Shown here: piece after piece, positions 6,214 to 53,386 of the stretch | How positions within the stretch are numbered: the stretch's first letter is position 1 | Layout: every line of letters starts with the position of its first letter | Assembly: GCF_000003815.2 (NCBI RefSeq) | Contig: NC_049991.1 | Coordinates: 1,595,718-1,659,717 of the forward strand | Reading direction: 5' to 3' | Length of the DNA stretch: 64,000 nucleotides | From: Branchiostoma floridae | Lineage: Eukaryota; Chordata; Leptocardii; Amphioxiformes; Branchiostomatidae | Made by a program: the position numbers and the translations under genes | The notes under the pieces: model-generated | What the model saw: only the letters and a program-made list of their open reading frames with translations | What the model was told of the DNA's origin: nothing | The model's database searches: none

Positions 6214-6532
6214 CCTTGCTATGAGAAAGAGTGATTTGCATGTCATGTTACTGACATTCTATGCTATTTCTTCTTCTATGCTATTTAATAGGAACATTCA
6301 CATAGGTGAAATTCTGAGGCCAAGCTCAAGTTAAGGTCTTTGCTTTCTGGTGGAAAATCATTGACCTTTCATCATATCAACTTATTTGCAGTGTTTTTTT
6401 CATCACGAGTGTAATTGAAATTTAAAGCATAAAGGAAAATTGAGACAAAGGTGACCTTAGATAATTTAATTTTCCAGTGGTTTGAATATTGTTTGTCTTG
6501 TTTCTGCAGAGTTTGACCCAGATATTGTTGAC

Positions 6533-7510
6533 ATGGCGACAACAGACAACATGCAGGGTTTGGATGACGTCAGGAGAGGAGCAGCAGGGGGTTCTGTCTG
6601 GCAGGGAGAAAGACGTGAGGATTCTGGGGAGGGGTTCAGTAGGGTAGACAAAGGTGTGAAAGTGTACAGGTGTGAGGAGTGCAGCAAACAGTTCAGTGTA
6701 CTGTGTAATCTGAAGAGACACATGCAGACTCACACAGGGGACAAACCCTACATGTGTGGGGAGTGCAGCAGGCAGTTCAGTCAGTTGAGTCATCTGAAAA
6801 CTCACATGCGTACTCACACAGGGGAGAAACCCTACAAGTGTGAGGAGTGCAGCAGGCAGTTCAGTCAGCTGTGTCATCTGAAAACTCACATGCGTACTCA
6901 CACAGGGGAGAAACCCTACAAGTGTGAGGAGTGCAGCAGGCAGTTCAGTCGGCTGGGTGATCTGAAGAAACACATGCATACTCACACAGGTGAGAAACCC
7001 TACAGGTGTGAGGAGTGTAGCAGGCAGTTCAGTCAGCTGGGCAATCTAAAGAAACACATGCTGACTCACACAGGTGAGAAACCTTACAGGTGTGAGGAGT
7101 GTAGCAGGCAGTTTAGCGACCATGGTAAACTGAAGACACACATGCGGACTCACACAGGGGAAAAACCCTACAGGTGTGAGAAGTGCAGCAGGCAGTTCTG
7201 TCAGCTGGGTGATCTTAAGAAACACATACGTACTCACACAGGGGAGAAACCCTACAGGTGTGAGGAGTGCAGTAGGCACTTCAGTCAGCTGGATGAGCTG
7301 AAGACTCACATGCGGACTCACACAGGGGAGAAGCCCTATAAGTGTGAGAAGTGCAGCAAGCAGTTTAGTACATCAAGCCATCTGAAGAGACATATGCGTA
7401 CTCACACAGGGGAGAAACCGTACAAGTGTGGGGAGTGTAGCAGGCAGTTCAGCGCGTCAAGAAATCTGAAGAAACACATGCGGACTCACCTACAGGGAGA
7501 AAATGTATAA
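6533..7510 (+). CDS. C2H2 zinc-finger protein, 10 fingers (ZNF copy 2)
   Basis: 325 residues from ATG 6533 to TAA 7508-7510. The exon opens after TTTCTGCAG (AG 6508-6509), so ATG 6533 is preferred over an upstream in-frame codon that lies in the intron. The N-terminal 44 residues are almost identical to ZNF copy 1 (MATTD.MQGLDD). Ten C2H2 fingers follow with TGEKP linkers (TGDKP after finger 1). Contact residues (-1, 3, 6) are VNR, QHT, QHT, RDK, QNK, DKT, QDK, QET, THR, ANK, largely different from copy 1, so the two proteins probably bind different DNA. Upstream intron (from about 6340) and 3' flank align with the first copy, showing a segmental origin. Expected nuclear DNA-binding regulator; the target is unknown. 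Confidence 0.93.
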
Positions 7511-10719: not shown

Positions 10720-12338
10720 CTATTCATAGGATCAAATCCTTAGAAAAGGCATTTTGTTGGAATTTTCACATTTTAAAGATGTTTATAGGGCATGATATCG
10801 ACTCAAGCTCTCGTAACCCGATCGTCTCTTACCGGATCAGTCACACCAATTTGATTTCTTCTGATTCGTTTCGATATTATTGTGTAGAAGCATGTCTATA
10901 TCTATATTTACATATTGTGGTACCACCAACGAAACAAGTTCCTCTAAGTCTTATCAATGTTTCAATTTTCCTATTTCATGATAAAGTAAATTTGTCAAAT
11001 TTCATGCTTGAAATGTCAGCACTCAGGAATGTTGACTACTAGCCAGTTTCTTATTTACTGCTTTTTCACCCGCCCTCCCCGTTATCGTCCTGCAACAATC
11101 TCAGAACCAAGGAATTACATTGATGTGGCTCAATATTCTTATCTGGTCGAAACGGCGTCAGGAAAATTTTAGTGAAAAGCAAGAACAGTAAACAACCTCC
11201 ATGCCTAATGTTAATATTCAAATAGCCAGCTTCAGACAATCAACATAACCATATGATTCGGTACGACTGCTCTACGGCTGTTTAGTCAGAGCTGATGAAG
11301 CATTCATTCTGCATGCACAATAACAAATTCGTGTAACAAAATGCTATTCTGCTTTTTTGTGTAGCATGGCTCAATATGTTACGGATTGGTCTATAGTCTG
11401 ACTTCACGTGACTTCGAGTATGGAGCATCCTTGCTCCTCGATATACAGCCCTCATACTCGTATTCAAACGTACAGCTTCAGACATTCAACGTGAACAATG
11501 ATGCAAACATATCAATAAAACAAATCTAACTTAGCATGAAAGTGAATTAATCTGTGTTGGTAAACTACATTATGGCACTAAACTTCATCTTAAGTTAGAT
11601 AAAGTTTAGTTCGTGCCAGAACACTAATCTAAGGCACTCCATTTTGGAACAGGTAATGAAGTAAGTATCATGGCGCGCTATCTTTCAAATGTTGATATTG
11701 TTTATTTGGTTGTTTGTTGGTTTATCAACTCCTTTAGCTGTCACATGTAGATGGAACAGCTAAACTTTCAGGAGCAACAAATACACACAGAAAACATGGA
11801 CAGCATAACATAACATAGCAGTTATGTCATGATTACTAGTACTAACAATAAATCCGCATGTGCTGACACAATGGTAGCTTATACTATTGGATGTATGATA
11901 ATAAATGTAATCATAATCTTATTAATTGTATATATTTTACCACCATTACCTTTTGCTGTTTAGGTTTGTACGAGAACTATTAATATGAAAAACGTTAGTC
12001 ATTACTTCATTTACATGTATCACCTTTGCTTGAAAGATTTCTTTTTCGGTGTTGTTGTGTTTCTGGTGTTGTGTTTCTGGTTTAGCAACTCAAGAAGCAA
12101 TGGATGGATTGCCATAAAGTCTTATTTGTGGCCCGTAGGTCTTACCCTATCAAAGAAAAAAAATAAATTTTACTCAATGAAAAAAAAACTGTCAGAGAAA
12201 AGTATGTCTTCAATGAGACTAATAACTCCCACAATTACAGCAAAACTATTGATACAAAGATTAATTGTTTCACAACAGCGTTGCAGAGTTAAAATTGTCA
12301 AATACTTTAAAAGAGGAGCCATTTCATTGTTTTGCCTA
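10720..12338. other. Gene-free stretch, probable LRR-gene intron
   Basis: AT-rich. A word CAGCTTCAGACA.TCAAC recurs at about 11228 and 11469 and, as ACTTCAGACAATCAAC, at about 9861. Open frames at 10779 and 11985 have no recognisable domains. It ends at a splice acceptor TTTTGCCTAG (AG 12338-12339) for the LRR coding exon. Confidence 0.4.
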
Positions 12339-12351
12339 GGTAACAGACGAC

Positions 12352-15300
12352 ATGGGGAGAAAGCTACGACACCTGCTGATTTTCATTCTCATCATCCTGA
12401 AGGAGCCAAGCATACCAGAAGCCGGCTGCAGCTGTGCATCGTCATCAAGCTGTGACTGCAGCAACCGGGGCCTCTCCAGCATCCCCCATGACCTCGGAAA
12501 ATCCATCCACCAGCTACAATTGAAACGTAACCAGATAACAATGATTCAGGCTGGTACATTTGTAAATCTGCCCCATCTACAAAAGTTGTACCTATCCTCC
12601 AACCAGATAACAATGATTCAGGCTGGTTCATTTGTAAATCTACCCCAGCTACACACTTTGCAACTGACGTCCAACAAGATAACAATGATTCAGGCTGGTA
12701 CATTTGTAAATCTGCCCCATCTACAAAAGTTGTACCTATCCTCCAACCAGATAACAATGATTCAGGCTGGTTCATTTGTAAATCTACCCCAGCTACATAC
12801 TTTGCAACTGAAGTCCAACAAGATAACAATGATTCAGGCTGGTACATTTGTAAATCCTCCCCATCTACAAAAGTTGTACCTATCCTCCAACCAGATAACA
12901 ACGATTCAGCCTGGTTCATTTGTAAATCTACCCCAGCTACATACTTTGCAACTGAAGTCCAACAAGATAACAATAATTCAGGCTGGTACATTTGTACATC
13001 TGCCCCTTCTACAAGAGTTGTACCTATCCTTAAACCAGATAACAATGATTCAGGCTGGTTCATTTGTAAATCTACCCCAGCTACAAGACTTCCACCTGTC
13101 CTACAACCAGATAACAGTGATTCAGGCTGGTACATTTGCAAATCTGCCCCATCTACAAGAGTTGTCCCTGTACACCAACCAGATATCAATGATTATGGAA
13201 GGTGCATTTGTAAATCTACCCCAGCTACAAACGTTGTACCTATCCTACAACCAGATATCAATGATTCAGGCAGGTTCATTTGTAAATCTACCCGGGCTAC
13301 AAACGTTGTACCTATTCTCCAACAAGATAACACTGATTCAGGCTGGTTCATTTGTAAATCTACCCCAGCTACATACTTTGCAACTGAAGTCCAACAAGAT
13401 AACAATGATTCAGGCTGGTACATTTGTAAATCTATCCCGGCTACGACTGTTGTACCTATCCTCCAACCAGATCACAATGATTCAGGCTGGTTCATTTGTA
13501 AATCTACCCCAGCTACATACTTTGCAACTGAAGTCCAACAATATAACAATGATTCAGGCTGGTACATTTGTAAATCTGACCCATCTACAAGAGTTGTCCC
13601 TGCACACCAACCAGATATCAATGATAATGGAAAGTGCATTTGTAAACCTGCCAAAGCTTCAAAGTTTATACCTTATGAACAACAAGATGTCTGCTATTCC
13701 TCCTTTAGCTTTTAGCTTGCTGCCACATCATCTCGTCATAAAACTGGACAGGAACCCCTGGCAGTGTGACTGTAAGATGGTTCCCTTTAGGCTAGATTCG
13801 ACTAAATTTCCTTCATTTAAAGATCAGGTAATCTGTGCACAGCCCACCAACTTACAGGGACATAAGCTTACAGATGTCAGTCCTGAAGACTTGGTATGTG
13901 CGGAGCCAACCATATCAGCACTGACTGTTAATGTCCATGTAACCTTTAACAACTATGATAAAACAGCCGGCTCAACAACAGGTCCTGCAGATGATAAGAC
14001 TAAACAAAGAGGAACAATAGCTTCACCCCTTCAAGCAACTTCAGACAGACCACAAACTGGCAAAACAATAACAACAATAACTCCTCAAACCACTTCCAAG
14101 GAATCTGTTCCCAGTTTCCCCATACATATTCTCATTGGCTCTGTCTGTGGTTCAATAGCTGGCATTGCCCTGATCGGCACAGTCATTTTCACAATTTGGT
14201 GCAAGAGGAGGACCAAGAGTCCTCCTTCAGACCCTTCAGCTAGAAACCCCTCGTATGGCACAGGGCAGATTGATTTAATCATGCAAGGTCTCCTGTACAA
14301 AGCCGTAGGTCAGCATCAGGCTACCACTAAATCCAACCCAAACACCACAGCTGCTCTAATGACCAGTGGTCATGATCACCAGTATGAAGATATAGACAAA
14401 CAACACAATCAGACAGGACAGGGTCAGTCTCAGACCATCACTGAATCCAACCCAAACACAACAGCTGCTTTAATGACCAGTGATCATGATCACCAGTATG
14501 AAGATATAGACAAACAACACAATCAGACAGGACAGGATCAGTCTCAGACCATCACTGAATCCAACCCAAACACCACAGCTGCTTTAATGACCAGTGATGA
14601 TTATCACCAGTATGAAGATATAGACAAGCAACACAATCAGACAGGGCAGGCCCAGTCTCAGGCCATCACTCAATCCAACCCAAACACCACAACAGTTACT
14701 GCTTTAATGACCAGTGGTCATGATCACCAGCATGAAGATATGGACAAACAACACAATCAGACAGGTCAGGGTCAGTCTCAGGCCATCACTGAATCCAACC
14801 CAAACACCACAGCTGCTCTAATGACTAGTGGTCATGATCACCAGTATGAAGATATCGACAAACAACACAATCAGACAGGTCAGGGTCAGTCTCATACTAA
14901 ATCCAACCCAAACACCACAACTGCTTTAATGACCAGTGGTCATGATCACCAGAATGAAGATACAGACAAACAACACAATCAGACAGGTCAGGGTCAGTCT
15001 CATACTAAATCCAACCCAAACACCACACCTGCTTTAATGACCAGTGGTCATGATCACCAGCATGAAGATATCGACAAACAACACAATCAGACAGGTCAGG
15101 GTCAGTCTCAGGCCATCACTGAATCCAACCCAAACACCACAGCTGCTCTAATGACTAGTGGTCATGATCACCAGTATGAAGATATCGACAAACAACACAA
15201 TCAGACAGGACAGGGTCAGTCTCAGACCATCACTGAATCCAACCCAAACACCACAGCTACTTTAATGACCAGTGGTCATGATCACCAGAATGAAGATATA

Positions 15301-16116
15301 GACAAACAACACACTCAGACAGGTCAGGGTCAGTCTCATACTAAATCCAACCCAAACACCACACCTGCTTTAATGACCAGTGGTCATGATCACCAGCATG
15401 AAGATATCGACAAACAACACAATCAGACAGGTCAGGGTCAGTCTCAGGCCATCACTGAATCCAACCCAAACACCACAGCTGCTCTAATGACTAGTGGTCA
15501 TGATCACCAGTATGAAGATATCGACAAACAACACAATCAGACAGGACAGGGTCAGTCTCAGACCATCACTGAATCCAACCCAAACACCACAGCTACTTTA
15601 ATGACCAGTGGTCATGATCACCAGAATGAAGATATAGACAAACAACACAATCAGACAGGTCAGGGTCAGTCTCATACTAATTCCAACTCAAACACCACAA
15701 CTGCTTTAATGACCAGTGGTCACGATCATCAGTACGGAGATATGACCCAACATAATCATCTAGAGTGTGGCCAGATCTTTAACACAAACATCACAGCTGC
15801 TGTAGCAACCAGTGGCCATGACCAACAATATGTAGACATGAACCAACATAATCAGACAGGGAAGGACTATCAGGCTATCATGGAAGCGAGAAACCCCTCG
15901 TATGGCAGAAGGCAGATTGATTCAATGGAAAGTCCCCTGTACAAAGCCGTAGGTCAGCATAAGGCCACCACTGAATCCAACCCAAACACCACAGCTGTTT
16001 TAATGGCCAGTGACCATAATCACCAGAATGAAGATATAGACAAACAACACAATCAGACTGGTCAGGGTCAGTCTCAACACAATCAGACAGGGCAGGGTCA
16101 GTCTCAGGCCAATTAG
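12352..16116 (+). CDS. LRR transmembrane receptor with repetitive tyrosine-motif tail
   Basis: 1254 residues in one exon, opened by an acceptor at 12338-12339, ATG 12352, stop TAG 16114-16116. Residues 1-24 are a signal peptide (hydrophobic 8-16, likely cut after PEA). C26, C28, C34 and C36 form an LRRNT cap. Residues about 51-465 are 17 LRRs of 24 residues (pattern LxxLxLxxNxIxxIxxGxFxxLP), alternating in 48-residue pairs. An LRRCT follows (NPWQCDC at 468-474, last Cys 516). A Thr-rich stalk leads to one transmembrane helix (about 592-614) and CKRR stop-transfer. The tail has no TIR or kinase domain. It has 15 copies of a 36-38-residue unit (NPNTT..LMTSGHDHQYEDIDKQ): six YEDI (Y678, 716, 754, 832, 942, 1054), YGDM (Y1128), YVDM (Y1160) and two NPSY (Y635, Y1184). 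Role is inferred: cell-surface recognition with SH2/PTB docking. It is not a Toll-like receptor. Confidence 0.92.
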   Translation: MGRKLRHLLIFILIILKEPSIPEAGCSCASSSSCDCSNRGLSSIPHDLGKSIHQLQLKRNQITMIQAGTFVNLPHLQKLYLSSNQITMIQAGSFVNLPQLHTLQLTSNKITMIQAGTFVNLPHLQKLYLSSNQITMIQAGSFVNLPQLHTLQLKSNKITMIQAGTFVNPPHLQKLYLSSNQITTIQPGSFVNLPQLHTLQLKSNKITIIQAGTFVHLPLLQELYLSLNQITMIQAGSFVNLPQLQDFHLSYNQITVIQAGTFANLPHLQELSLYTNQISMIMEGAFVNLPQLQTLYLSYNQISMIQAGSFVNLPGLQTLYLFSNKITLIQAGSFVNLPQLHTLQLKSNKITMIQAGTFVNLSRLRLLYLSSNQITMIQAGSFVNLPQLHTLQLKSNNITMIQAGTFVNLTHLQELSLHTNQISMIMESAFVNLPKLQSLYLMNNKMSAIPPLAFSLLPHHLVIKLDRNPWQCDCKMVPFRLDSTKFPSFKDQVICAQPTNLQGHKLTDVSPEDLVCAEPTISALTVNVHVTFNNYDKTAGSTTGPADDKTKQRGTIASPLQATSDRPQTGKTITTITPQTTSKESVPSFPIHILIGSVCGSIAGIALIGTVIFTIWCKRRTKSPPSDPSARNPSYGTGQIDLIMQGLLYKAVGQHQATTKSNPNTTAALMTSGHDHQYEDIDKQHNQTGQGQSQTITESNPNTTAALMTSDHDHQYEDIDKQHNQTGQDQSQTITESNPNTTAALMTSDDYHQYEDIDKQHNQTGQAQSQAITQSNPNTTTVTALMTSGHDHQHEDMDKQHNQTGQGQSQAITESNPNTTAALMTSGHDHQYEDIDKQHNQTGQGQSHTKSNPNTTTALMTSGHDHQNEDTDKQHNQTGQGQSHTKSNPNTTPALMTSGHDHQHEDIDKQHNQTGQGQSQAITESNPNTTAALMTSGHDHQYEDIDKQHNQTGQGQSQTITESNPNTTATLMTSGHDHQNEDIDKQHTQTGQGQSHTKSNPNTTPALMTSGHDHQHEDIDKQHNQTGQGQSQAITESNPNTTAALMTSGHDHQYEDIDKQHNQTGQGQSQTITESNPNTTATLMTSGHDHQNEDIDKQHNQTGQGQSHTNSNSNTTTALMTSGHDHQYGDMTQHNHLECGQIFNTNITAAVATSGHDQQYVDMNQHNQTGKDYQAIMEARNPSYGRRQIDSMESPLYKAVGQHKATTESNPNTTAVLMASDHNHQNEDIDKQHNQTGQGQSQHNQTGQGQSQAN
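12514..13700 (+). repeat. 144-bp LRR-pair tandem repeat in coding sequence
   Basis: Within the LRR exon the DNA repeats at 72 bp (one LRR) and more strongly at 144 bp (ITMIQAGTFVNLP.. then ITMIQAGSFVNLP..). Several 144-bp units are nearly identical in nucleotide sequence, indicating recent unit duplication. Antisense open frames here are by-products. Confidence 0.85.
14320..16110 (+). repeat. 108-114-bp tail-unit tandem repeat with 336-bp higher-order repeat
   Basis: Fifteen in-frame units of 36-38 codons. Units 7-8-9 (from 15001) and 10-11-12 (from 15337) form a near-identical three-unit block with an exact 336-bp (112-codon) period. The tyrosine codon TAT in unit 1 is replaced by CAT (His) or AAT (Asn) in units 4, 6, 7, 9, 10, 12 and 15. 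A block beginning ARNPSYG...LYKAVGQH occurs before unit 1 and again before unit 15. Confidence 0.9.
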
Positions 16117-24354: not shown

Positions 24355-24688
24355 GCAAGTAGACGTCATTCGCAACAATTCCATATATATATATAGTGCA
24401 TGTACATGATGTCATGTAGGATGAGGGGGGGCACTCCGAACTAAGCCAAAAAAAGCCTTTCTGTCGTCCTTACAAGGTTTGAATTTCATTGTGATAATTC
24501 ATAGCTATGTGTGCAATCATCTGATTTAAGTCGATAAGGCATACACATGATTACATAAGTTAAACAAATATGCAAACAACAAATCAAACTTTGCCTTCAG
24601 ATAATTTTCATAACACATTTTTTTCATAGCTCTATAACCTAGCTTGACTATGACTAGTGCCTAGTGTCTATCTAACCTATCACTATAG

Positions 24689-27600
24689 GTGATGCAAACC
24701 GATCCAAACTTCGGGAAGAAGCCGACTGCCTCCGGAAACTGGCTGAGGTTTACCTGAAGCGAGGAATACAGACGAAGGAAGGTAGGAAATTCACCCAGGC
24801 ATCAGCTCTGTGCCACGCGGCGATGGTCAGAACAAACGACGAGAAGCTCAAACAAAATCTCCTTAAACTGATCAAAGAAACAGAGAAATTATTTCTTAAA
24901 CATACAATAGGAACGCCCAGTGAACAGAGCCCATACGACTTAGATATCTGCCACAAAGAGCAGTTGCAGGAAATGCGAGATAGTGTAAAGCGCACACTTG
25001 AAGCAATTCACGACGACTACAATCCCTACCAGTATGATGAAGACGATCCTGTAGTAAGAGACGTTGAGGTTAAACGAGCTGAAGCGATCGAAGACTTGTC
25101 TAAAAGAATCGCTAATGAGAGGCAGGTTTTCATTCAGGCGCTCCTTGAAGAATGCATAGACAAACTCGGTGCTCCCCCATGTAAGTATACTGCCATTGGT
25201 TTGGGCTCACAAGCAACAGAACTGGTCACACCGTACTCCGATCTGGAGTTCGCTATTCTCATCGAGGACGGAAAGGACAATGAAGACACACGACAGTACT
25301 TCCTCAATCTCACACATTACCTACATCTGAAAGTCATTAACCTTGGAGAAACCATCCTTCCAGCAATGGCGATTCCATTGCTGAATGACTTTCAATCTGA
25401 TGATCTAAGTAAAGACTGGTTCTATGACTCTGTGACACCTCGTGGTTTTGCCTTCGATGGCTTTATGCCATGGGCCAGTAAAACCCCTTTCGGAAGAGAC
25501 CAGACAAAAACGAACCCGCCAATCAGTCTGATTCAGACACCTGCTAAACTGGTCGAATATCAGGAGCTTGATGTGGCCCTGGCGGAAGGGTATCACCTGT
25601 CTGACATTCTCAGGCGTGTATCATACTTAGCTGGAGACCAGGCTTTGGTAGATGATTACATGCTAAAGGTGAATGAAACAATACAGCAACAGCACTCAAG
25701 GCTCCCTTTCCTCAAACGTTACCCATTGACCACAATGGACGTTGTTCGGGAGATGTGCAAGCCGGCGACCACAGTTGATCAACTTTTGGATGTAAAGAAG
25801 GACATGTATCGTTTTCCCAGCATAGCTGTTGACTTCTTGAGCCAAATCTGCGACGTTCGCAAAAGTAGTGTGTGGGCAGTTACTACAGAGCTCCACCGAA
25901 TACATAGGATCAATGACGACGACGCAAACAACTTGAAGGTACTGCTCAGTATCTCTGCAGAACTAAGATTAAGAACATACATGGCGAACAAAGGACAAAA
26001 GGAATGTCTATCTGCACTTCCACAAGTCACAGATCAGTCTATTCCACTGCAGGAAGTGCCAAACAAAGGGCTTGAATCAGTATTTCGTATAAAGGAAACT
26101 AAGATGATTTTTCGCTACTTCTACACATCAATTCCATTGAAGCAGTGTATTTCAGACATAATCCTAAAGGCTGGTCATGTCTCAACTGGAAGTTTATTCA
26201 TTGATGCAACCTTGCTCGACTGTACTCCAAAAAACAGGGGCATCATAGCAAAATCCTTTCTGCAATTTGACATTGCCAAACACCATTTCCAAAAGGCTTT
26301 GAGGGAAGCTGGCAGCGACCAAACACAATGTGGAATTCTCAATGTATTGCTAGGGGAGGTCTATTTACAGAAAGGTGATTGGGCAAAAGTGATTGAATGC
26401 AGTGAGCTGGAATTTAGCCAACTTGAACCAGATGCCAACTTTAAGGAAAGAGCATACGTTGCTCAGTCATTGAATACGCTAGGATCGTCTTACCACGCCC
26501 TTGGTGATTTGCAGAAAGCCATTTGCTACTTTGAGCAAGCACAGGAAGTCGTTAAGCCAGACCCTAACACTACAATGCACCACACCACTACCTCATCGTT
26601 AGGCGGATTGGCAACATGCTGGCTTTATCGTTCTGACTTCAAAAAGGCAATAAGCTACCAGGAACGGATACTGTTGATGGAAAGAAGTCGTGGGAAAAAA
26701 ACAGTGCAAGCTGACATTGCCTCAGCACTTAACAACTTGGCAATCTCGTGGCTAAACTTTGGAGACGTGGAGAAAGCTGTAGAACTGTTAGAAGAATCAT
26801 TAAAGATCATGAGAGATCTTTATGGACACATGACCGCGCAATCTGGTATAGCTTTTTCACTGTGCAACCTGGGTGTATGCTATGGTAAACTTGGTGACAA
26901 CAGTAAAGCAGGCAGCTACCATCAACAGGCACAAAGGATGATGAGTGTTATCTACGGACACAACGTGGCACACCTTAACATTGCCGCGATACTCTGCAGT
27001 TCAGGAGAATCCTGTCATGATCTCGAAGACGATAGGAAGGCAATTAGTTACTACGAACAGTCACTGAATATGTACCAAGCTATTTATGGGAAGAACGTTA
27101 ACGTGCCGCATCCGGCATCTGTCCTCAAGGTACTAAACGGCCTTGGAACATCCTGGTGTGAGCTTGGCGACAATGATAAAGCAATCAAGTACTTCAACCA
27201 GTTACTAGCAACGGCAAAAGCTCTCTATGGAGAAAACGCCTCGCATCCCCGCATCGCCACTACACTGTGTGACCTTGGCAGGTGCTTTGATGAGCTTGGT
27301 GATAACGAACAAGCAATCAGGTATTATGATCAATCACTGACGATGATGAAGGCTGTAGATGGAAATAACAAACAGTATGTCATTGCTGAATGTCTTGATT
27401 ATATTGGTGGATACTGGCGCAATCTCGGAGATACAAAGAAGGCCATAAGCTACTACGAACAGTGCCTTGAAGTTACAAAAGCCATTCGCGGGGACAACGC
27501 GGTACATTCTGATTTCATTAATGTATTCGGCAACTTGGGCCTGTGTTGGACTGATCTTGGTGATCATCGAAAAGCAATCACCTTTTTCGAAAAATCACTG

Positions 27601-29109
27601 CAACTTTGTAAAGAGATCAATGGGGAATCTACACAAATACCAATAATTGCCGAGATATTAAAAGACCTCGGACATAGCTGGAGTGAGCTAAAGAACCACA
27701 GCAAAGGGCTTGACTACTACGAACAATCACTGAGAAGCAGGAAATCTATTCATGGTGAAAACGTGGCACATCCAGACATTGCCAAGTTACTCGGACACAT
27801 AGGAATGCTTATCGGTGAGGGTGGTGACTCCCGGAAAGCAATCAGTTACTTTGAACAGGCGCTTGAGATGTTTAAAGCCGTTGAAGGGGGGCAAAAGGAA
27901 CACGCTAACATCGCATGGATACTTGGCAGGTTGGGGACTTCTTGGAAACAGCTGGGAGATGCCAGGAAAGCACATAGCTACTGGGAAGAGTCACTTCTGA
28001 TGTTCAGATCTATTTGTGGAGAAACCGATCGTAACCGATCGGAAACTGTACGTTTACATGTCAACATTGTCCGCTTACTTTACAAGTTAGGATCTTCCTT
28101 CTCTGACTTAGGAGATGACAGGAAAGCGATCAACTACTTTGAAGAGTCAATTGAAATGCTCAAAACGAGTCATAGAGAAAATGGAGTAGACAATGCCTGT
28201 TCACTTATCAAATTGGGTCTATCCTGGGGGAATCTTGGAGATTTAAGAAAAGCAATTTACTGCTTCGAACAGTCCCTTGAGATGTTAAAAGGTATTGGTG
28301 GAGATATTAAGGAACTAATGGAGGAGGTACTCAACAACTTAGGAGCTAACTGGGGCAACCTGGGAGACCACAGAAAAGCAATCACTTATTTTGAACAGTC
28401 GCTCGACATGCTAATAGCTTTGCATGAAGAGAAGAAAGAACACGTGCACGATTATGGCATTTTCCGGGCCCAATCACTGAAAAATTTAGGGGTAGCGTGG
28501 GGTAAGCTGGGAGATGTTGGAAAATCAACCAGCTACTTCGATCAGTCGCTAAGAATGTTCAAAGCTATATCTAGAGACGGCAGTGTGGTATCTGATATTG
28601 ACGAATTATTTACAAAATGTGCAACTTTGTGTTGTCATCAAGACGATGCAACGAAAGCCATCAGGTACGGTGAAAAGGCACTAGAGATACTTGAAGCTAA
28701 TCAAGAGAAAAAAGCAAACTCTTCTATTGCCGGGTTTCTGTACAAAATGGGAAATACCTGGCTTGAACTAGGAGATAGACGGAAAGCCATATTCTTCTGT
28801 GAGAAGGCGCTTGAGATGTTCAAAGATATTCATGTAGAAAACAAAGATCATTTTGTCATTGCCATGATACTCCAAACCTTAGGGATGTGCTGGAGTGGCC
28901 TAGGGGACATCATGAGAGCGATCGGTTTCTTTGAACAGTCACTTAAAATATACAGAGATACATGTACTTGTGAAAAGAAAGAAGAAACCCTTCTAATTTC
29001 TCGTTTACTTAAACAATTGGGGCAGTCCTGGAATAACATAGGAGATGTCGACAAATCAGCCATGTATTTTGAACAGTACCAAGAGATGCTCAAAGCTACT
29101 CAGGATTAA
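24689..29109 (+). CDS. NTase-TPR protein, main exon (NTase-like domain plus about 21 TPRs)
   Basis: Opens after CACTATAG (AG 24687-24688) and joins the previous exon as HGDANRSKLREEADCL; stop TAA 29107-29109. About 1,472 codons. A helical segment (KLAEVYLKRGIQ) precedes a nucleotidyltransferase-fold signature at about 25195-25250: GLGS, ten residues, then DLE, with TPYSDLEFAIL. This matches the GS..D-x-[DE] metal-binding core of the Pol-beta-type NTase superfamily. WFYDSVTPRGFAFDG and a TPFGR motif follow. From about 26265 to the end run about 21 TPRs of roughly 42 residues (LGxxWxxLGDxxKAIxYFEQSLxM), like kinesin light chain or nephrocystin-3. Catalysis is not proven; a third acidic residue was not assigned. 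Likely a cytosolic scaffold or sensor; this function is inference. Confidence 0.9.
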
Positions 29110-30034: not shown

Positions 30035-32805
30035 CCCTGAAAATTTCTGCATTTTTAGTAATACTAGTAATAATAGCAGTAGTAAATTAATTGTGATATT
30101 CTTTATATCAACAGATGAATATCATTCACCTAATCTTCTCTGCACAAAGAATATTCAAAATGAAATTTATCTTACATCTACAAAATGTACTATTCATTAT
30201 ATTTCAGCCCTTTCACTTCAATCAACCAAACAATATATTCCAATTATTTGCTCTTACACACAACTACCAGATTGATTGCAGGTTCCTCTATACATGACAT
30301 AATGAAGGATTCCTAATCTTCCACATTTTTCCTGATCCAGATGTTCTGTATGTAAACTGACAGTAGCTGTATATCAGCTGGAAGCATACATTGCACCTAA
30401 GCCACCGATTGTCTCCAAATTCCTGGAAACTGTCTACAACCTTGAACATGGATCATCCAAATTGCACACTTGGGTTTTGGTTGACATTGACAAATTGGAG
30501 CAAAGCCCTACAAGCCTGATAAATCATGTAACAGTTAAAGCTAATTTAGAAGTAAATGTTAAATAGTATTTACACCTGGTTGAATTTTTTAAAGACAGTT
30601 CAATCCCTACAACTGGATAAAGTAATAAAAATTGACTTCCAGATGTTTTGAGAGACATCTGTCACTCTTCTTCAACATCACTAAGAATGAATTGACAGAA
30701 CAATTCAGTACAATTACATCTAATTGCAAAAAATCAGTTGAACGTGTCAAAGGCTTAGTGCCTCATAAGGATCATATGCAAATGTCACTCGTGATGAAGA
30801 AGAGTTATGGATGTCACTCAAAATGTATGAAAGTAAATGTTGTCTTTAAACATTGTTAAGCTAGATGTCTAACTTTTATAAACATACCGTGGTATTACAG
30901 TTTATTTCATACCTGGGCCATGACAACATTTGATACAGGTGTTCCGGACCGTGTGATAAAAAGCCGAACCACACAGGCTTCAACGTTTTATCACACATGC
31001 TTACATCGAATAGATCGAATGTACTCTGTGCAGGTCGAGTTCGGTGCGGTCAAAAATTCAAATACCTGATTCGGACGTTGGAATTGCTGTTGTAACAATT
31101 TTTGTTTGAGGGCACCAAATTTTTTCAACTTCTGGCGCATTTTGAAACATGTGCTTTCTCAGGTAGGTATGACATAAATGAAATTCCATACATTGTATTC
31201 CACATCACCCACGGTCCCAGCCCTCCTGCGGGTTGGATCACCCTCCGGCTTTCAGGCAATCCTACCTGCGGTCGGGCTGGTACCTTGGGTGATTCCAAAT
31301 ACACCATGTTGTATTCTATATAATTAAATGTCATGATATGTCACAAGTTCTCTGTTTCCTTCTCTGCTTTTTTGTCCCGTATGCTGACACTCTTGTTCCC
31401 CCTGATGTAGAATCTCCAGGGCTTTTTGGCCCACTCCTCCCCAGCTGAGTCTATCCCTATCCTAGTGGAGTGTATGATGTCAGAGTCTGTCACATTGTCT
31501 CCTGGCTCCAGCCATATAAAGGGACATGTTGTCAGGTCTTTCTGGTTCACTGTGTTCCTAGAAATAGAAGAGGGGAAAAAGTAGACAAACTTATTGAACA
31601 TAAATGTACCAGTATTACTTTCATTCAGGCTTTAAGCTGTATTTCCATTTACCCGACACACATTCAATAAAAAAAAGACTGTGATCTTTTTTTTGAGAGG
31701 ACTTTTGGCAAGGGACATGAAGTTTTTGATCTGAGTCATGAAATTCTAAAACAGAAATTTTCAAGTAGTCTTAATTTATGCTCAGATTAAGGCTCTGAAC
31801 AGTTAATATTGTACTTATTTGTTCAGTTTACTACTAAACTTACACTTGTACCATGTATATCTATAATATATATATATAATTACATGATGCTAAAAAATAC
31901 TGTTTTTCTGATGCATTTCAGTCTTATGCTGTTACACTGTATCTCTGATATTGGAAGAAATCTGAAAAAAAGTGAGAAAGAGAGAATTTCTACCTACATG
32001 TACCTATTCTAATTTTTCACAACTGTAATTATCATAAGCATTGATTTAATTGTGGAATAAGAAAGACATAGCACACTTTCCAACTGCAGCATCTAGGATA
32101 AGAAGTCTTGGGGAAAGATGCTCACATGACGTACACCACTTAACACATTATCAAGTGCTCAGTGCACAAGGTATTGTTCTAACATAACATCATACATACT
32201 TGTCTATGTGTAGAGCTTGACACAGTTTAGAAGGACCATTGCCCAGTTGTTCTATCTTCAGACCTGCTCCCTTGTCTCCCCTTCGCTGTCCTCTCTGTAC
32301 CTTCATCTGCTCTACACCAGTCAGCGGCTGTACAGCTCGGATCAGAACAGCTGCTCCTTCTCCTATGGACCAAAATTTAGATAAAGCCTTATTAAAGCAT
32401 GTAAGAAAAAGGAATTGGTAAAAAACTGAAGCTAAAGCAGCTGAGACGGCGTCCCGCTCATGGCTTTGCATATTTCCTACAACTGTAACATCACCTTTCT
32501 CTACTTACAGGTCCCTTTCCCATTTATCCCGGCAATAACCTCAAATAAAGTATGCACCTTGACTTTTGCAGCAACTTGCAGCACCTTGCGGCTATTGAAA
32601 TGTAGAAAATGTGCGTACTTTATTCGAGAAAATACAGAAGCATCCTAACAGTTCTCTTCTAGACCAATTGTCCAGACATGTTTTGTTTGTGTCTCAGGGG
32701 CCTTCATTTTTGACACACATGACACACAATGTGACTTGCTGAGCTTGTGCAGTTGGAACCATGAACATGCTTATAGTGTTAGGTGTATTGTTAGCTAGTA
32801 CATGT
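30035..32805. repeat. Segmental duplication, copy 2 (partner 16355-20655)
   Basis: Direct-orientation partner of copy 1, carrying intact exons 2 and 3 of the glycosylase gene. It lacks the two insertions at 16684 and 17113 and so provides empty sites for them. It has its own insertions, including the palindromic element at 31191-31308. Confidence 0.85.
31191..31308. mobile_element. Short palindromic repeat downstream of MPG
   Basis: Inverted ends CATTGTATTCCACATCACCCA and TGGGTGATTCCAAATACACCATG, with CCCAGCCC/GGGCTGG inside. 118 bp. Not present in duplication copy 1. Two open frames across it are chance. Confidence 0.55.
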
Positions 32806-33375
32806 ACTTCTGCATTGATGACTGTTACTGTAATCATATTTTTTACTAAATAATATTAAAAATGGACACCAAACAGCATGCACAAATAATACTGAGAAAC
32901 ACTGAGATCCATGCAGCATATCTATAATCCCACCTTGACTGGATATGTTGAAGCAGTGGTACATCCCATAGATGATGTACACATACGCCGTCCCTGGCTT
33001 CATGAACATTGCGGCGTTCCTCTCCGTCTTCTTGCTTCCGGAGGAATGCGATGCCTTGTCGTCTTTACCACAGTACGCCTCCGTTTCCACGATCATCCCA
33101 GAAACCACCGCGCCATCATCAAGTTTTCTAACTATGATTTTTCCTAACAATCCTTTTGCGAGGTCCAGGCACATTTGATCATAAAAGCTAGACGACAGCC
33201 TAGCTTTACATGAACTTGTTGTATCATTGGAAAAATAAGGACTTGTGGTTGTGGTGTCAGGCAAAGCAGGTGTTTTTGTATTGACTTTGGCCTTGACTGG
33301 ACAATCTGAAGTTTCTGATAGTTTGTGTTTCTTAGGTTTTGTTGGTGGCATCTTCTTTTGAGCTACAGCTGCCAT
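31341..33375 (-). CDS. MPG: DNA-3-methyladenine glycosylase (N-methylpurine DNA glycosylase)
   Basis: Three coding exons on the minus strand: 33375-32934 (442 nt), 32362-32200 (163 nt), 31557-31341 (217 nt), total 822 nt, 273 residues. Donors AAG|GTGGGA and AA|GTATGT and acceptors CCATAG and TTCTAG keep the frame (QGEGAAVLIRA and HIDKNTVNQ across the joins). The base-excision-repair enzyme removes alkylated purines in the nucleus. Residues 1-60 are a basic, poorly conserved tail. Catalytic core: VETEAY (E99, Y101, equal to human E125/Y127), ASHS (H110), YIIYGMY, FNISSQG (N143), then GPSKLCQAL and EEWAKKPWRFYIRG. Human protein is 298 residues. The ATG exon is opened by a strong acceptor at 33391-33392, so an untranslated first exon lies upstream. 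It appears intact and functional. Confidence 0.95.
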
Positions 33376-33392
33376 TCTGTAGCAGTTTGTCT

Positions 33393-34897
33393 GGAAGAGT
33401 AAAGAAATACAAACATGTTAATAATTATATAGCATTCATCAAATACATGTATAATGAAAAATGATTATCACTATATATCTGTGAGAATTTGACAGACTGT
33501 TTAAGAAATTGAAAGCACTTGTTTTGTTTAGGCTGTTCAAAGAAACAGACAACTACAAAACAAACCATGTTTGATTGTTAGACAAAGTCAGCTCTGATTG
33601 TTAAACAATGGTTTCTTGAAGTTTGTTTACACAACAGCATGGAGAGTAAAAACTGTGTGCATCTCTTATAGATATGTTTCCTGGGAACTAACTGAAAGGT
33701 GTACATCATGCAAACCGTATCATTTTTTTTTTTTTTTGCCAACCAACCAACTTGTCAGGAGCAGTTTTATCCAACAGCCAACTCCAGTCAACAACTATAT
33801 TTCTTTGGTCCCTTGAGTGGTTGTTGAATACAAGTTTGACTGTATAATTGTTGTTAATATGTTTGTACTGCATAACCATTACACTGCCTCATGGTATAAC
33901 ACATCAGGTTTATATTGAAGAGTACCTGTAACAGTGGGGTTCAAGCACTGCCAACCGACCATGGCAAACGCCTGTCAGGCTTTTGTCCAAATTGGTTGGG
34001 TGCTTGGTTTTGGGAGCTTGGCTACCCGGGTCCGGCGCGATAGGTCGCGGGTTTGAATCCCGGGAGCAAGCTTGGGGTAAAAACTGTTATACCCACCTCT
34101 GGTGTTTCATACCTTAGAGCTTAGTATATCTGGAATGCATTGGTACATTGTAAGGTCCCCTACACTTTTCGATGAGATTGAGTGTGGTGGGTTCTTTAGA
34201 ACATTGATCGAGGTGTGGCTATCCTCAAAACAAGGATTCTATTAAACCGCCATTTAACGTCTTATCATAGGGATGTCCCTTATTGCTAAGTTCCTGCCTT
34301 AGGTATACTCATTTTCACCTGAGTGAAGTGAGGAAGGGCACAACATCAAGGCATGTCCTGCATGTAACCTCCCAGCATCATCCTCAACAAGAGGGTACAT
34401 GGGGGGGTCTCAACAATGCTTTACACAGAAGCCCTTACATATAACGATATATTACGATATTCAAAGAAGGCAATTACGCAAAATTTGGTCGCCTTGCTAC
34501 GAATATGAATTTCCCTACAAATCACGAGAAATCAAAATAAGCTGTTTACGCCATACGAAAAAGCCTTGACATGTAGGCCCTGACAACATAACAAATATCA
34601 AATTCATATCAATATGGACAGTGACATATTTTCAACAGATTGCAAATGTAATCTTTAATATAACAACTCTATACCAATACCACCATGATAATGAGATACA
34701 AGTGCACAGAAAAAGTGATACCTCTTGGATCTTACCACGGTTTCAATCAACCAACCCAGCCTGACATGGTCTACAAATTTGCAGTGCAGTGCAGTGTTTG
34801 TTTATGGTTTTACCTGCCCAGACATGTTCAGGCACGCCCCCTAGTAGGTCCTTAGCGACCTGCAGTATCTTACACCTGTTCAACCAGATATACTTAC
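33393..34897 (-). other. Probable 5' UTR intron of MPG, with repeats
   Basis: From the ATG-exon acceptor a first untranslated exon is expected. A candidate minus-strand donor GAGG|GTAAGT has its exon end at 34898. The interval contains a 13-T run, a remnant of the CAGTCAAACC element (33775-33845) and a tRNA-derived SINE-like sequence. Confidence 0.4.
34010..34420 (+). repeat. tRNA-derived SINE-like element
   Basis: The head, about 34015-34075, has AGCTTG pairing with CAAGCT 50 bases later (acceptor-like stem) and a T-arm-like GCGGGTTTGAATCCCGGG containing the Pol III B box GGTTTGAATCC. A non-tRNA body of about 350 bp follows. Length and 3' end are approximate. Confidence 0.5.
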
Positions 34898-53180: not shown

Positions 53181-53386
53181 GACATACTCGGACTGTTTGT
53201 CACTCTTTTACACATACTCGGACTGTTTGTCACTCTTTTACACATACTCGGACTGTTTGTCACTCTTTTACACATACTCGGACTGTTTGTCACTCTTTTA
53301 CACATACTCGGACTGTTTGTCACTCTTTTACACATACTCGGACTGTTTGTCACTCTTTTACACATACTCGGACTGTTTGTCAGCAA
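53181..53386. repeat. 30-bp minisatellite, seven copies
   Basis: Unit ACTCGGACTGTTTGTCACTC plus TTTTACACAT, repeated without change. The 30-bp period keeps several frames open, giving repetitive hypothetical peptides that are not evidence of a gene. Confidence 0.95.

Follow-up and report, generated by a model that had tools for sequence, protein, structure and literature searches.

A leucine-rich repeat receptor gene and its tail array

We analysed a 64-kb stretch of the Branchiostoma floridae genome (C13:1595718-1659717 of the assembly; referred to as the window in the rest of the text), which contains a gene coding for a predicted leucine-rich repeat (LRR) receptor with one transmembrane helix and a long tail made of tandem units. 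The gene belongs to a large family of putative LRR type I receptors dispersed through the genome, and across the family the core of the unit, DHQ[Y]ED[IMV], is the least-changed part of the tail unit. The receptor is encoded on the forward strand in one coding frame (12352..16116, corresponding to C13:1608069-1611830) that runs from an ATG at 12352 to a stop codon at 16114-16116 and gives a protein of 1254 residues, exactly as described in an earlier note on this DNA. The start region (MGRKLRH-like) is common to 26 of the 41 family loci considered below, window included, and in most of these 26 aligned loci a T-rich tract and an AG lie about 15 bases 5′ of the ATG (A 0.81, G 0.77). In the window this AG stands at 12337..12338 (+), 15-14 bases before the ATG, and we infer that it is the 3′ splice acceptor of an intron in the 5′ untranslated region, with the coding part contained in one exon. 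Such a structure makes removal of the tail by splicing less likely, and the frame is open throughout, which speaks against the out-of-frame tail named in the earlier note as a possible refutation.

The protein combines a signal peptide, capped LRRs, one transmembrane helix and a positive-inside juxtamembrane stretch, as in type I extracellular LRR receptors. The signal peptide (about residues 1-25; 12352..12426) was judged by eye from the sequence, and a similar start is found in the same 26 loci. It is followed by an LRRNT-like cap (12427..12504) with cysteines at residues 26, 28, 34 and 36; because the Pfam LRRNT match lies under the cut-off (E=0.085; 12.9 bits versus a cut-off of 25.8), this part of the earlier description holds by cysteines and position only, while the other predicted parts of the architecture (signal peptide, 17 LRRs, LRRCT, one transmembrane helix) were recovered as described. 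The 17 LRRs, of 24 residues each, start at residue 52 (12505..13728; Pfam LRR_8, E=1e-112) and are partly arrayed as 144-bp pairs. An LRRCT cap (NPWQCDC...C...C, cysteines 472, 474, 495 and 516; 13729..13899) was likewise recognized by eye from its cysteine pattern, no separate LRRCT match being found among the Pfam hits. A Ser/Thr-rich stalk (13900..14115) leads to the transmembrane helix (about residues 589-616; 14116..14199; hydropathy maximum of 2.14), which is followed by KRRTK. In agreement with the earlier note, no TIR domain, the mark of a Toll-like receptor, was found among the Pfam hits to E=1.

An AlphaFold model of residues 1-620 built from the single sequence gave an LRR solenoid (mean predicted local distance difference test score, pLDDT, of 65; predicted template modelling score, pTM, of 0.61), with block pLDDT values of 66-91 across residues 51-440, about 50 at the last LRR and low values from there on. 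Comparison of this model with the PDB gave generic LRR ectodomains among the 50 matches listed, with query TM-scores of 0.23-0.47, the closest solved chains among them being LRRC15, LRIG1, LGR4/5 and TLR3; because these matches are generic, the LRR subfamily was left unassigned. Variation among the LRRs (12505-13728) peaks at six presumed concave-face positions (mean entropy of 1.77 versus 0.64 elsewhere), and the ratio of nonsynonymous to synonymous differences per site (pN/pS) among 15 LRR units is 1.25, a pattern reminiscent of the diversification of a binding face. No further copies of receptor parts were found inside the 64-kb window.

The signal peptide, the single transmembrane helix and KRRTK together predict a cytosolic tail, as the docking claim of the earlier note supposed. 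The tail (14203-16113) holds 27 N-glycosylation sequons (NTT and NQT in most units), versus 3 in the ectodomain, though it is expected to be cytosolic; a luminal tail, raised by these sequons, was rejected on the same three features.

The tail is 638 residues long and contains six YEDI (residues 678, 716, 754, 832, 942 and 1054), one YGDM (1128), one YVDM (1160) and two NPSY (632 and 1181), a motif count that agrees with the earlier one, together with two YKAV and one YQAI (1173). One end of the array carries a module, ARNPSYG...LLYKAVGQ (14239..14331), that joins NPSY to YKAV and has a duplicate, ARNPSYG...PLYKAVGQ (15886..15975), at the other end of the array. One frame reads 15 tail units of 33-40 residues; the units were cut in the protein, so that lengths in multiples of three bases follow by construction, and the real signal is the same unit read 15 times in one frame. 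Units 1-12 (36-40 residues each; 14332..15681) carry at the acceptor position Y Y Y H Y N H Y N H Y N. Units 4-12 form a higher-order repeat of 336 bp, in which a three-unit H-Y-N block is present in three copies (14674-15009, 15010-15345 and 15346-15681), the last two differing at 2 of 336 bases, both residue-changing. The divergent units 13 and 14 (15682..15885) hold YGDM and YVDM as well as YQAI, and unit 15, reading NEDI, has lost its Tyr; together with a 10-residue C-terminal duplication (HNQTGQGQSQ) it occupies 15976..16113. The acceptors of units 1-15 are thus 8 Tyr, 3 His and 4 Asn, and six of the seven Tyr losses fall within the H-Y-N blocks.

The earlier note had presented the tail as an amplified array. 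In 20,000 shuffles of the tail, at least one YE[DE]I occurred in 0.2% and two NPxY in 0.06%, so that these motifs exceed chance; the six YEDI, however, all derive from a single unit and do not count as six independent events. That note had missed the set of 15 units itself, seven of them without Tyr, as well as the YKAV and YQAI sites, the duplicated NPSY-YKAV module and the existence of a large family. Duplication in this gene has multiplied units of mixed type. Between the window units we counted 9 synonymous and 12 nonsynonymous minimal events (ratio of 0.28, p=0.006) and a ratio of nonsynonymous to synonymous rates (dN/dS) of 0.21 (bootstrap 0.07-0.54), which falls to 0.15 when the Tyr codon is left out. 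The window tail units evolve under purifying constraint. The immunoreceptor activation motif pattern (ITAM, Yxx[L/I] x6-12 Yxx[L/I]) is absent, the YEDI sites being at least 38 residues apart and the nearest Tyr pair, YVDM(1160)-YQAI(1173), having M instead of L/I at its first +3 position. The strict inhibition motif (ITIM, [I/V/L]xYxx[L/V]) occurs once in the tail, as LLYKAV at residues 647-652, and array units of the HQYEDI type do not match it.

Members of the family in the amphioxus genome

We searched the window's own assembly (513,431,437 bases, 431 contigs) for relatives. The whole protein gave at least 171 matches (37 of 2533 candidates scored) and the tail alone at least 165 (69 of 340 candidates scored). 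Joining 150 rows of tail matches whenever they lay within 3 kb yielded at least 63 loci, the window among them, spread over 15 contigs. We analysed 41 loci, namely the window and 40 others, 36 of them from the whole-protein search and 4 from the 29 further tail loci; all four picked from tail-only matches also carry LRRs. At least three LRRs, a transmembrane helix and at least one core unit stand in one stop-free frame in 36 of the 41 loci, window included. These frames were read from stop to stop, and a few, L011 and L019 among them, contain masked letters. Basic juxtamembrane residues are present in 35 of the 36 frames, which places the predicted tail inside the cell. The number of canonical Tyr units per frame ranges from 0 to 15.

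The window array is the second longest sampled (15 core units), after that of L012, which has Tyr in 19 of 19 core units, read in two frames; L032 and L038 are also fuller, with Tyr in 10 of 10, and such relatives display the design more clearly than the window gene does. Five loci (L028, L034, L040, L045 and L049) lack a single frame joining LRRs, helix and tail in the stretch read, and some of them may be pseudogenes, L049 being shortened by the bounds of that stretch and by a long masked run. An open frame of 18396 residues on C8 probably consists of masked letters read as open; L049, at the same place, ends in that masked run. The two C8 genes L047 and L049 have long Ser/Thr/Val/Pro repeat stalks (STVPVSTVP...). 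No relatives of the tail were confirmed in viral and prokaryote contigs, as expected.

Elsewhere in the window, two C2H2 zinc-finger frames (200-1423 and 6470-7510) consist of 84-bp tandem fingers, have closely similar N-terminal parts and are probably a local duplicate pair. An open frame of 1477 residues (24676-29109) combines a DUF294-like nucleotidyltransferase stretch with a long TPR array, a partial methylpurine-DNA glycosylase gene lies on the reverse strand (32794-33417; Pfam Pur_DNA_glyco, E=2.4e-32) and a 30-bp tandem repeat of 6.7 copies with 100% match occupies 53182-53382.

Tyrosine conservation across the family

A profile of the unit gave 420 hits in the 41 loci, of which 307 had all six core columns; setting aside 27 core-less units left 280. 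In the relatives of the window gene, a Tyr is present in 249 of 265 core units (236 in place and 13 shifted by two residues), the other 16 carrying C (5), N (5), H (4), F (1) or D (1), and position +3 is I, M, V or L in 254 of 265. Eighteen units with Ser at this position belong to the core-less class, wrongly aligned to the core, and do not count as Tyr losses. When 279 units, those of the window gene among them, were placed on a tree, the Tyr codon, at 18, had the lowest number of amino-acid changes among the 28 codons compared, and ratios were 0.26-0.39 at D-3, H-2, Q-1, E+1 and D+2 versus 0.81 overall; fixed offsets ignore insertions and deletions, so that codons far from the core appear too variable in this comparison, and duplication and exchange between units blur the tree. 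At the level of the family, then, a multiplied Y-E-D-[I/M/V] site, as proposed in the earlier note, is supported.

The same cannot be said of the window gene as its best example, in which 7 of 15 units have lost the Tyr versus 16 of 265 elsewhere (Fisher p=4e-5, or p=0.0016 with the core-less units as losses, the units in both cases not being independent). The window copy is a family outlier, with about half of its Tyr sites lost. One explanation, compatible with any reading of the family, is that only the window gene is decaying or attenuated, its loss of Tyr being either tolerated or a means of turning signalling down. The three parsimony steps at the acceptor position on the tree of window units add to the excess of losses; however, the frame remains open over 1254 codons, and the 8 Tyr units left are more than in 27 of the 35 other LRR-transmembrane-tail frames. 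We consider decay or attenuation of this copy a serious possibility, at slightly less than even chances.

Taken alone, the window units had favoured a different verdict, in which the tail is a coding minisatellite: a low-complexity spacer, rich in Q/T/N/H/D, that grows through slippage and unequal exchange and in which the tyrosines are passengers. Consistent with it are a tail hydropathy within the disordered range, the recent duplication of the 336-bp block and the existence of core-less units, as well as the behaviour of the Tyr codon considered in the next paragraph. Against it stand the purifying selection on the window units and, across the family, the low rate of change of the core and the retention of Tyr. 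The genome searches reversed this leaning towards passengers for the family but left it standing for the window gene: the high Tyr retention in the relatives restores at the family level a docking-array reading that the window gene alone had weakened. As an account of these tails we judge the minisatellite unlikely.

Several observations nevertheless weigh against a docking array. The Tyr state of 113 of the 420 hits, dropped for an incomplete or masked core, and of the 27 core-less units lies outside the count. On the unit tree the changes at the Tyr codon comprise 11 synonymous and 18 nonsynonymous ones (ratio of 0.72), and between loci pairwise pN equals pS at this codon (0.106 each), so that constraint on the Tyr alone is not strongly shown. 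Conservation of Tyr outside the window gene (0.89) equals that of D at -3, and the linker residues Q and S reach 0.93 and 0.90. In the window gene, Tyr is replaced in 7 of 15 units (His in three, Asn in four), and among its 13 regular units none of the 25 codons varies as much as that of Tyr. The NPxY motif is not strict in the family (NPMY 33, NPSY 33, NLSY 15, and others). Core units also occur in another frame in 7 of the 36 genes (L012, L014, L015, L017, L021, L022 and L044), to which the 5 of 41 loci without a single frame must be added.

The shifted tyrosines bear on the same question. All 12 counted core units of L047 and L049 have the Tyr two residues later, in HEYMSL or a similar sequence, and each of these two genes also holds an incomplete unit (HQYDN, HQYEN), outside the core filter, whose Tyr is at the usual place. 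The shift was probably one or two events that were then amplified; it is suggestive, not proof, that each unit needs a Tyr. A Tyr and a hydrophobic residue at +3 are also what a YxxPhi clathrin-adaptor signal requires. The units could accordingly be read as such signals, and the NPxY motifs as endocytic ones, in an array that would drive uptake and not signalling. The near-constant hydrophobic +3, its retention in the shifted YMSL units and the frequency of NPxY motifs in the family all agree with an endocytic tail. In contrast, E+1 and D+2, which adaptor binding does not require and Src-type SH2 sites favour, are among the least-changed codons (ratios of 0.35 and 0.28). This argument is not decisive, because the YMSL units lack E+1 and D+2; overall, uptake seems to us an improbable main role for the array.

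Proposed function and known systems

Acidic residues at +1 and +2 (E, D) and a hydrophobic residue at +3 after a Tyr form the context favoured by Src-type SH2 domains, and YEDM and YVDM that of PI3K-type SH2 sites. This fit, together with the parallels to an amphioxus receptor, engulfment receptors and bacterial effectors described below, favours a docking array whose number of sites is set by duplication. That the family tails serve mainly for phosphotyrosine docking seems to us rather probable, and the receptors are most likely innate ones with tails that are phosphorylated and dock SH2 and PTB proteins. Once the LRR solenoid binds a ligand or clusters, the long disordered tails would come close to one another. 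A kinase of the Src family (Lck-like), or a related one, would then phosphorylate the Tyr of every DHQ-Y-E-D-[I/M/V] unit and so create docking sites for SH2 proteins, among them Src-family kinases, PI3K-type SH2 domains at YEDM and YVDM, and possibly SHIP/SHP phosphatases. PTB adaptors would be recruited to the NPSY and NPMY sites, as happens with engulfment receptors. How many sites a receptor has would depend on tandem duplication within its tail. In this scheme we infer cell type, ligand, kinase, docking partners and sign of the signal alike, and the claim of the earlier note that the tail recruits kinases and grades signalling appears overstated.

A bolder form of the proposal, which we advance tentatively and hold to be less probable than its alternatives taken together, is a repeat-counted rheostat of innate signalling in dozens of chordate LRR receptors: unit duplication would add docking sites, changes of Y to H, N or C would remove them, and one lineage would have moved its Tyr, making a fast-evolving animal counterpart, in layout, to the Tyr segments of bacterial effectors. 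If true, the Y-tail LRR family would allow the dependence of signalling output on repeat number to be tested directly, and the length of the tail array would be a trait worth measuring in natural populations.

The closest precedent comes from Branchiostoma belcheri, whose Lck-associated LRR receptor is named BbLcLRR. BbLcLRR is likewise an amphioxus LRRNT-LRR-LRRCT-transmembrane receptor, its mRNA is high in gut, and in Jurkat cells it is Tyr-phosphorylated via Lck and then binds SHIP1 and, to a lesser extent, SHP1/2 (PMC8211107). It differs in its 699 residues, its WSC domain and its main Tyr sites, three in number and set in contexts that are ITIM or ITIM-like, a tandem tail array not being described for it in the accessible part of the report, and the comparison is by description only (PMC8211107). 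No WSC domain was found among the Pfam hits of the window protein to E=1, and the BbLcLRR contexts DDYATV, HDYSEV and HDYDDP (PMC8211107) are absent from it, which speaks against orthology. A further point against the proposed signalling is that BbLcLRR is inhibitory, not kinase-recruiting (PMC8211107). The family could follow this precedent as a variant of the docking model, its tails recruiting SHIP/SHP phosphatases and the number of sites setting the strength of inhibition. BbLcLRR, which inhibits via its three Tyr and binds SHIP1 more than SHP1/2 (PMC8211107), argues for such a variant, as do LLYKAV, which fits an ITIM, and the recurrence of LYKAV/LYKVV in the family. However, the array unit HQYEDI does not have a hydrophobic residue at -2, as a strict ITIM would, and the YKAV sites lie outside the array; we therefore give the inhibitory variant a low probability.

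The docking array also has partial counterparts among other receptors. Megf10, Draper and CED-1 are single-pass receptors whose tails carry NPxY and Tyr motifs that SH2 and PTB proteins recognize; they have EMI/EGF- or NIM-type ectodomains and few motifs rather than LRRs joined to a tandem array (PMC8092387). In the window protein the resemblance lies in the motifs. FrLRR of Branchiostoma belcheri is an amphioxus LRR receptor tied, in the intestine, to the Tyr-signalling adaptor Grb2, but it has a folate-receptor domain, a predicted glycosylphosphatidylinositol anchor and no cytoplasmic tail (PMC10199209). Toll-like receptors and other LRR ectodomains share the capped LRR solenoid; unlike Toll-like receptors, the window protein has a repeat array for a tail and no TIR domain was found in it. 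In layout, the array also resembles the bacterial EPIYA effectors, in whose disordered regions a Tyr segment that binds SH2 proteins is tandemly duplicated in variable copy number, disorder being argued to favour the duplication of segments; these are injected bacterial proteins of unrelated sequence, and the likeness is one of layout only (PMC3593179).

Neither the tail sequence strings nor a description of the tandem Y-E-D-[I/M/V] array or its family were found in the searched literature, most subscription papers lying outside its scope. The earlier note had put the gene forward as a candidate for an undescribed receptor design; the array design is real, but it is not undescribed in kind, BbLcLRR having been published (PMC8211107). 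LRR receptors with phosphotyrosine tails are already known in amphioxus, and the tandem array and its family appear to be the new part. Together, BbLcLRR and FrLRR suggest that amphioxus LRR receptors feed tyrosine-kinase and adaptor pathways (PMC8211107, PMC10199209).

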